64,000 nt of DNA, taken from the NCBI GenBank assembly GCA_016933025.1, contig JAFGBT010000025.1, forward strand, positions 1 to 64,000. Direction: 5' to 3'. Positions 9,972 to 35,100 of this stretch are shown one piece after another. The notes under the pieces were generated by a model. That model did no database searches. It saw nothing but the letters and a program-made list of their open reading frames with translations, and was not told the DNA's origin. Each line of letters opens with the position of its first letter. Position 1 is the stretch's first letter. Origin of the DNA: Spirochaetota bacterium. Lineage in GTDB: Bacteria > Spirochaetota > UBA4802 > UBA5550. The position numbers were made by a program, and so were the translations under genes.

Positions 9972-10325
9972 ATGGAACATTTGACAAAAGATGCGTTCAA
10001 AGAAAAAATTTTTGATTTTGAAACGAATTCTGAGTGGAACTATAAGGGAGAACTGCCGGCTATAATAGATTTCTATGCCGATTGGTGCGGTCCGTGCAAG
10101 ATGGTCGCGCCGGTTCTAACGGAGCTTGCTGATGAATACGCCGGCAGGATCAATGTTTACAAGGTCAACACCGATCAGGAGCCCGAACTCTCCGGCGCCT
10201 TCGGTATCCAGAGTATCCCGAGTATCCTGTTTATCCCGGTCGGAGACCAACCCCAGATGGCCGCGGGCGCCCTCCCTAAAAAGGCTTTTCAGGATATTAT
10301 AAGGGACGTCTTGAAGGTTAATTGA
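9972..10325 (+). CDS. trxA: Thioredoxin
   Basis: This 117-residue single-domain protein carries the WCGPCK active site (FYADWCGPCKMVAPV) and the cis-proline loop QSIPSILF. It is a general cytosolic disulfide reductant that would be recharged by the thioredoxin reductase at 33437. The start is set at the ATG after gagggtacA; the longer frame from 9933 lacks a ribosome site. The stop is followed by a dispersed repeat (10370-10508), so it is probably monocistronic. Confidence 0.93.
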   Translation: MEHLTKDAFKEKIFDFETNSEWNYKGELPAIIDFYADWCGPCKMVAPVLTELADEYAGRINVYKVNTDQEPELSGAFGIQSIPSILFIPVGDQPQMAAGALPKKAFQDIIRDVLKVN

Positions 10326-33436: not shown

Positions 33437-34417
33437 ATGGAATTCAATCTCTCTGCAGGAATGTTCTCATCGGAAGAGAAGTTCAGTCCCCTTGATACCG
33501 CGAAGACTTACGACGTCCTGATTCTGGGAGGCGGGCCGGCCGGCCTCACGGCCGCTGTCTACTGCATGCGCAAGGGTGTGTCGACCGGCATCATCGTCAA
33601 GGAAATCGGCGGTCAGGTGGCGCTGACCGCCGGCATTGAGAACTACATGGGCTACCGCCACATCAACGGCGTCGAGCTTGTCGACAAGTTCAGGGAGCAG
33701 GTCGTCCAGTTCGGCATTGACTATGACGAGGGAGCTTCTATCGCGTCCATTGAGGCGGGTGAGGTCAAGAGGGTCAAGCTCGAGGACGGAAGGGTCTTCT
33801 CAGCGAGGGCGCTCATTGTCGCAACCGGCAAATCGTGGCGCAAGCTCGAAGTCCCGGGCGAGGAGGAGCTCACCGGCCTCGGCGTGGCCTACTGCACGAC
33901 CTGTGACGGGCCCTTTTACACCGGGAAGGACGTCATAGTGGTAGGCGGCGGTAATTCCGGTCTGGAGGCAGCCATAGACCTTGCGCGGATCGCCTCCTCT
34001 GTCACGGTAGTGCAGTTCCTCGACCGGCTCACCGGCGACAGGATCCTTATCGACAAAATGAAGGGCTTCGAAAACGTCCGGGTTCTGTACGAAACGGAGG
34101 TGACATCCATCAACGGAAGCGAAGAGGTGGAATCAGTATCCGTCCGGAACCGGAAGAACGGGGCTGTGGATGAAATACACGCCAAGGGGATTTTTATCGA
34201 GATCGGGCTGGTACCGAACAGCGGCTTTGCGAAGGGTTTCCTGAAACTCAACGAGGCAGGAGAGATCATGGTGGACTGCGCGTGCCGCACGAGCGTCCCC
34301 GGCATATTCGCGGCCGGCGACGTGACCGACGTCCCGTTCAAGCAGATAATAATCGCGGGCGGCGAGGGGGCCAAGGCCGCGCTCTCCGCGTGCAATTACG
34401 TTTTACAAAAATCTTAG
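33437..34417 (+). CDS. trxB: Thioredoxin-disulfide reductase
   Basis: This 326-residue flavoprotein uses NADPH to reduce thioredoxin-type proteins. FAD-binding GGGPAGLTAAVY (31-42), the redox pair C153-TTC-D (AYCTTCDGPFY), NADPH-binding GGGNSGLEAA (about 175) and the C-terminal GIFAAGDVTD are all present. It is slightly long at the N-terminus (about 24 extra residues). The next gene is a two-domain disulfide reductase with a probable selenocysteine, a likely substrate. A perfect 24-bp palindrome overlaps its stop codon. Confidence 0.95.
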   Translation: MEFNLSAGMFSSEEKFSPLDTAKTYDVLILGGGPAGLTAAVYCMRKGVSTGIIVKEIGGQVALTAGIENYMGYRHINGVELVDKFREQVVQFGIDYDEGASIASIEAGEVKRVKLEDGRVFSARALIVATGKSWRKLEVPGEEELTGLGVAYCTTCDGPFYTGKDVIVVGGGNSGLEAAIDLARIASSVTVVQFLDRLTGDRILIDKMKGFENVRVLYETEVTSINGSEEVESVSVRNRKNGAVDEIHAKGIFIEIGLVPNSGFAKGFLKLNEAGEIMVDCACRTSVPGIFAAGDVTDVPFKQIIIAGGEGAKAALSACNYVLQKS

Positions 34418-34455: not shown

Positions 34456-35100
34456 ATGGCACTATTCGATGAAAACGTCAAGCAGCAGATATCAGGCATT
34501 CTCAAGAACATGAAAGGCCCGGTCAACCTGGACTACTTTACCCAGGAGTTCGAGTGCGCCGCCTGCCGCGAGACCCACTCCTTCGTTGAGGAATTCGCAA
34601 AGCTATCAGACAGGATAAAGCTGTCGATTGATGACTTCCAGAAGGACCGGGCGGCCGCCGACGGCCTCCATATCGACAAGATCCCCGCCATCGCCATAAA
34701 AGACGGTGAAGGCAATGACACGGGCATCAGGTTTTACGGCCTGCCCGGCGGATACGAGATCAACTCGTTTATCGGCAGCGTGCTTGAGGTCTCCGGGCAC
34801 CGGGAGCCTCTGAAAGAACCGGCTGCCTCCCGGGTCGCCGCCGTAAGCAGGGACGTTCACATACAGGTGTTTGTCATGGCCACCTGACCCTACTGCCCCG
34901 GTGCCGTGAGCACCGCCCACCGTCTTGCACTTGAAAATAAAAATATCAGGGCCGACATGGTTGACTCCGCCATATTTCCCCACCTGGTCCAGAAATACCA
35001 GGTGAACGGCGTGCCGAAGATTATCATAAACGAATCGATAAGCATGGTTGGGGCACAGCCGATCGAGAAATTTCTGGATGAGATCGAAAAAATCAGGTGA
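34456..35100 (+). CDS. Probable selenoprotein: two-domain thioredoxin-fold disulfide reductase, Sec144
   Basis: Read through the in-frame TGA at 34885-34887, this gene encodes 214 residues with two thioredoxin-fold domains, like the archaeal/bacterial PDO and 'glutaredoxin-like' proteins. Domain 1 (about 5-115) has a CAAC pair (C34, C37) and a cis-proline loop DKIPAIAI. Domain 2 (about 133-214) has VFVMAT-(TGA)-PYCPGAV, where relatives have a CPYC active site, then VNGVPKIIIN with the cis-proline. The TGA thus occupies the attacking cysteine, and C147 is the resolving residue. Homology continues without a break after the TGA, ending at TGA 35098. A SECIS-like hairpin follows the codon. GCAGGAGG precedes the ATG. 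It is likely recharged by the adjacent TrxB. Automatic annotation would cut it at 34887 and perhaps call a second GTG-started gene at 34906. Confidence 0.85.
34885..34920 (+). promoter_or_regulatory. UGA codon with bacterial SECIS-like hairpin
   Basis: After the TGA (34885-34887) the RNA can form a perfect 6-bp stem CGGTGC (34899-34904) / GCACCG (34910-34915) with the loop CGTGA. The apical loop begins 17 nt after the UGA and has a G in its first two bases. This fits the published bacterial SECIS consensus (loop 16-37 nt after UGA, stem of at least 4 bp, a G among the first two loop bases). It lies inside the coding sequence, as bacterial SECIS elements must. Confidence 0.75.

Follow-up and report, generated by a model that had tools for sequence, protein, structure and literature searches.

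A window of 64,000 nucleotides from the draft genome (55 contigs) of an uncultured Spirochaetota bacterium (GenBank assembly GCA_016933025.1, contig JAFGBT010000025.1) contains, at positions 34456-35100 of the forward strand, a gene that encodes a 214-residue protein with two thioredoxin folds when its in-frame TGA (34885-34887) is translated as selenocysteine (Sec, U) at residue 144. The TGA lies inside VFVMAT-U-PYCPGAV and coincides with the first Cys of the C-terminal CPYC site; beyond it the frame remains open for 70 codons and ends at a TGA stop at 35098-35100 (MALFDENV...VFVMAT-TGA-PYCPGAV...GVPKIII...EKIR-TGA). The initial annotation had described the interrupted CPYC site, the GVPKIII loop with the in-frame continuation to a normal stop and an intact N-terminal CAAC pair, and all of these were indeed found, the CAAC motif at residues 34-37 (34555-34566). 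Ordinary gene callers would truncate the gene at the internal TGA. The terminal stop is also TGA, and no SECIS-like hairpin was found after it; in the remaining five Sec forms of the same order, the stop is TAA or TAG. A scan of the window for other genes with an in-frame TGA yielded only what by eye appeared to be shadow frames or ordinary stops.

When the TGA is translated as Cys, the product matches the NCBIfam profile TIGR02187, named PDO_seleno_TRX by NCBI, with 242.9 bits (cut-off 185) and over its full length (residues 6-212 on profile positions 2-208 of 209). Each thioredoxin fold carries one redox motif (CAAC at residues 34-37 and UPYC at 144-147), which is the two-motif arrangement of this family. 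The relatives of solved structure that were found by sequence are the archaeal protein disulfide oxidoreductases (PDOs) 1j08 and 1a8l and the N-terminal domains of AhpF; UPYC aligns with the CPYC of the archaeal PDOs, and CAAC represents a second, ordinary site. CxxC is retained at the latter position by most homologues, the Hydrogenibacillus homologues L098 and L099 being examples that lack it. Taken together, the sequence data make it very probable that the gene encodes the selenocysteine form of a protein disulfide oxidoreductase (Sec-PDO).

This Sec-PDO is a further member of a selenoprotein family that has been known since 2004. The family, with its motif listed as UxxC, is credited to the prokaryotic selenoproteome paper of that year by PMC13188914; it was counted in 2006 (PMC1794560) and is also covered in PMC9312934, and a 2024 paper reports it from Asgard archaea as well (PMC11227280). 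Like the Sec-PDOs of Carboxydothermus hydrogenoformans and Symbiobacterium thermophilum, the protein belongs to the family by curated score and carries the Sec motif UxxC, but unlike in those reports the host is a member of an uncultured Spirochaetota order. For Treponema denticola, the spirochaete included in the 2006 tabulation, the family has no entry (PMC1794560). The archaeal PDOs, including that of Sulfolobus solfataricus, share the two thioredoxin folds with a CxxC in each and differ in having Cys in the C-terminal site, where Sec is predicted here.

Selenium machinery and the exchange of Sec and Cys

The genome encodes the machinery for Sec insertion, the absence of which was to count against the Sec reading in the initial annotation. 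On contig C27, a tRNA-Sec gene with anticodon TCA (74.3 bits) precedes selA (491 bits) and selB (322 bits). selD (372 bits) is located on contig C50 and has an in-frame TGA of its own in SSSG-U-AAKIG, at the position that is occupied by Cys or Sec in selenophosphate synthetases. The selD gene (L118, C50:101565-102491) adjoins a cysteine-desulfurase-like gene. Both tRNA-Sec and selB score over the cut-off in all six Sec-PDO genomes of the order, this one included. In G029, a relative of G034 and G037 that has the Cys form, selB did not reach the cut-off, and the top-scoring tRNA-Sec candidate only just exceeds its cut-off (47.5 bits). Sibling genomes, too, have second sites that score at this level, in addition to a 72-bit gene; we therefore read G029 as lacking a Sec system.

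An alignment with homologues, which the initial annotation had suggested as a check, showed a TGA or a Cys codon at the active-site position in 107 of 108 loci (TGC in 47, TGT in 41 and TGA in 19; Cys thus in 88), counts that overstate independence as some loci represent one genome fetched from two sources. The remaining locus, from a Chloroflexi relative (L111, near 3400), has the Asp codon GAC in place of Cys or Sec. TGA is found at the identical codon in a genome of the same genus (G004, locus L019; 79% identity) and at the same codon in other lineages as well. On a tree of 98 distinct proteins, 17 of them with Sec, the Sec state requires a minimum of 10 changes, and the starred branches force at least 7. 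Within the order, Sec forms occur at three places (G000, the genome studied here, with G004; G022 with G035; and G034 and G037), each near Cys relatives. The region downstream of the TGA is under purifying selection as judged from the comparison with G004 (dN 0.076, dS 1.02). The same site is also TGA in L115 (3-368), which lies on a short contig assigned to a Poseidoniales archaeon, either truly or by mis-binning. Two further loci that had been flagged as containing one TGA, L021 and the second G005 copy, were set aside: their active site reads TGC or TGT, so that the flagged TGA lies elsewhere, in L021 at the ordinary terminal stop.

Three other readings of the TGA were considered, and each of them is very improbable. 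That it stems from a sequencing or assembly error, or from a mutation that turned an ordinary Cys protein into a pseudogene, might be suspected for a draft genome, the more so as a single base separates TGC from TGA. This reading is disfavoured because independent genomes share the TGA at the same codon, by which it is largely refuted; it also fits poorly with the selection acting on the 3' part of the frame and with the TGAs at catalytic Cys sites in other genes of the genome. If the TGA were instead a true stop, the product would be a single-domain protein of 143 residues, with the downstream part untranslated or forming a separate gene. An ORF with a GTG start is indeed open from 34906 to 35100, but its start is located 3' of the active-site codons, so that the resulting fold would lack catalytic residues, and the junction of the two parts coincides precisely with the Cys position in full-length relatives, which makes a genuine stop hardly credible. 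There is equally little room for decoding as another amino acid, whether through a non-standard genetic code or through a near-cognate tRNA. The open frame alone is compatible with this as much as with Sec, but the genome has a full Sec system, its putative TGA sites fall on redox-active Cys positions, and relatives exchange the TGA with TGC or TGT only, bar the single GAC.

The hairpin downstream of the TGA

The Sec reading is complemented by a hairpin (34899-34915) in which a 6-bp stem (CGGTGC/GCACCG) encloses the loop CGTGA (34905-34909). The distances from the TGA are 11 nt to the start of the stem and 17 nt to the loop, exactly as given in the initial annotation, where the hairpin had been matched to the bacterial SECIS consensus. 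That match holds against the published bacterial SECIS (bSECIS) model (PMC13188914), which specifies a loop of 3-9 nt, a stem of 4-16 bp, a G in the first two loop positions, a distance of 16-37 nt between UGA and loop and an energy of -7.5 kcal/mol or lower: the hairpin has a 5-nt loop, 6 bp, a G at loop position 2, a distance of 17 nt and an energy of -8.7 kcal/mol. A search of the window against Rfam gave no match.

The stability of the hairpin taken alone lies within chance expectation (fold z-score -0.37), a stem of at least 6 bp arises in that zone in 15% of synonymous recodings, and thermodynamic stability was accordingly rejected as proof of a SECIS element. It is the conservation of the hairpin that argues for more than chance. 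Stems of at least 6 bp were found in 13 of 17 distinct TGA sequences versus 17 of 80 Cys sequences (p = 2.6e-5 by Fisher's test, uncorrected for relatedness), and the longest identical DNA run shared with G004, G001 and G022 falls on the hairpin; outside it, only about half of the synonymous codons are kept in comparison with the same three relatives. Each of the six Sec genomes of the order contains a hairpin that satisfies the bSECIS rules, for instance a related 7-bp hairpin with loop AGTT in G034 and G037, and no hairpin meeting the model was found in the near Cys relatives G042, G041, G029, G025 and G002. In L023 (G035) one stem pair has changed from T-A to C-G on both sides, but the evidence from covariation is thin, as this single two-sided change among six sequences with little variation was equalled in 88 of 500 shuffles.

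G001, a member of the same genus that has TGC at the active site (L020, 1501-2139), retains the identical SECIS-like hairpin. On the basis of the sequences, this hairpin is probably a SECIS relic left after a change of TGA to TGC, and the reverse order, from Cys to Sec, is less likely.

The neighbouring flavoprotein and possible electron flow

The gene directly upstream (33437-34417, forward strand) encodes a TrxB-like flavoprotein with a CTTC site. The initial annotation had called it thioredoxin reductase, which is right as far as the resemblance to TrxB goes, but the C-terminal, reductase half of AhpF (profile positions 206-514) scores better, with 387.6 bits versus 306.1 bits for TrxB, both values being below the curated cut-offs for full-length proteins. 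The AhpF model TIGR03140 describes a fused polypeptide with a cut-off of 502.9 bits; here the two parts are found in two genes that score 106 and 387.6 bits. Judged by sequence, the gene pair thus looks like one that works as AhpF does, without being classed as AhpF. AhpF and its homolog TIGR03143 consist of the same parts, a PDO-like domain and a thioredoxin reductase (TrxR)-like flavoprotein, and differ from the situation here, where the parts are separate genes, the PDO part carries Sec and the N-terminal CxxC is present. The fusions occur in both orders, PDO-TrxR in AhpF and TrxR-PDO in TIGR03143, and both profiles align to both proteins. Moreover, tblastn searches showed that the PDO gene of nearly every orthologue in the order is immediately preceded by a flavoprotein gene.

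The mechanism that we propose builds on the open frame, the Sec machinery, the Cys/Sec exchange, the hairpin and the gene pairing, all of which were seen at the sequence level. SelB and tRNA-Sec would insert Sec at the UGA at 34885, and the hairpin just 3' of this codon would act through SelB as a bacterial SECIS element. The resulting protein, with two thioredoxin folds, an N-terminal CAAC and a C-terminal Sec-Pro-Tyr-Cys, would form an unfused AhpF-type pair with the upstream flavoprotein. NAD(P)H would reduce FAD and then the Cys pair of the flavoprotein, this pair would reduce the Sec144/Cys147 selenenylsulfide, and the selenol could subsequently reduce protein disulfides or oxidised peroxiredoxins. 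A flow of electrons from NAD(P)H via FAD and CTTC to Sec144/Cys147 is supported by the gene pairing and by the fusions in both orders, and we consider the flavoprotein to be the probable electron donor of the Sec-PDO. A role for another reductase, or a function of the Sec-PDO as an oxidase or isomerase with the neighbour not being its main donor, has some appeal because the nearest Sec relative (L019 in G004) and most homologues outside the order have no TrxB beside the gene, so that the pairing is not obligatory; since nearly every orthologue in the order shows the close pairing and fused homologues exist, we regard it as unlikely.

That the substrates of the Sec-PDO are protein disulfides or oxidised peroxiredoxins is possible, although we hold this with less than even confidence. 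The PDO of Sulfolobus solfataricus is reduced by NADPH-thioredoxin reductase and reactivates peroxiredoxin (PMC7278568), and since it passes electrons to peroxiredoxin, the peroxiredoxins of the present genome are plausible clients. Four of its AhpC-TSA family genes, L130 (C19:75984-76373), L131 (C44:191028-191423), L132 (C45:21655-22029) and L133 (C47:27504-27875), are interrupted in frame by a TGA where the peroxidatic residue is expected; the motifs in this set are FVUPTE, FVUATE, KLUIRE and FFUPFC. Of the four, L131 is clearly a PrxU, with 419.9 bits (cut-off 270). In three of the four genes a hairpin below -7.5 kcal/mol lies 17-25 nt away, and that of the fourth is weaker (-5.1). The window itself contains a weak partial AhpC-TSA match below the cut-off (10002-10187; 24.5 bits).

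Among the 59 genomes searched, the L130-type Sec-peroxiredoxin was found only in G000 and G004, both of which have the Sec-PDO, and it is 91% identical between the two. At least one Sec-peroxiredoxin is present in all six Sec-PDO genomes of the order versus 15 of the 28 Cys-PDO genomes, a co-occurrence that is suggestive only (p = 0.04, uncorrected for relatedness). A tandem selenium relay, from the split AhpF-like flavoprotein via the Sec-PDO to Sec-peroxiredoxins, is a speculative extension of the proposed mechanism that these sequences would allow. According to a paper cited in PMC9312934 ('Tandem use of selenocysteine'), a selenoprotein glutaredoxin is reported to serve a selenoprotein MsrA.

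To the known family, the present case adds an uncultured Spirochaetota order as host, the split-AhpF pairing in that order and a probable SECIS relic. The occurrence of Sec and Cys forms in close relatives, together with the hairpin of G001, makes the switch from Sec to Cys directly traceable.
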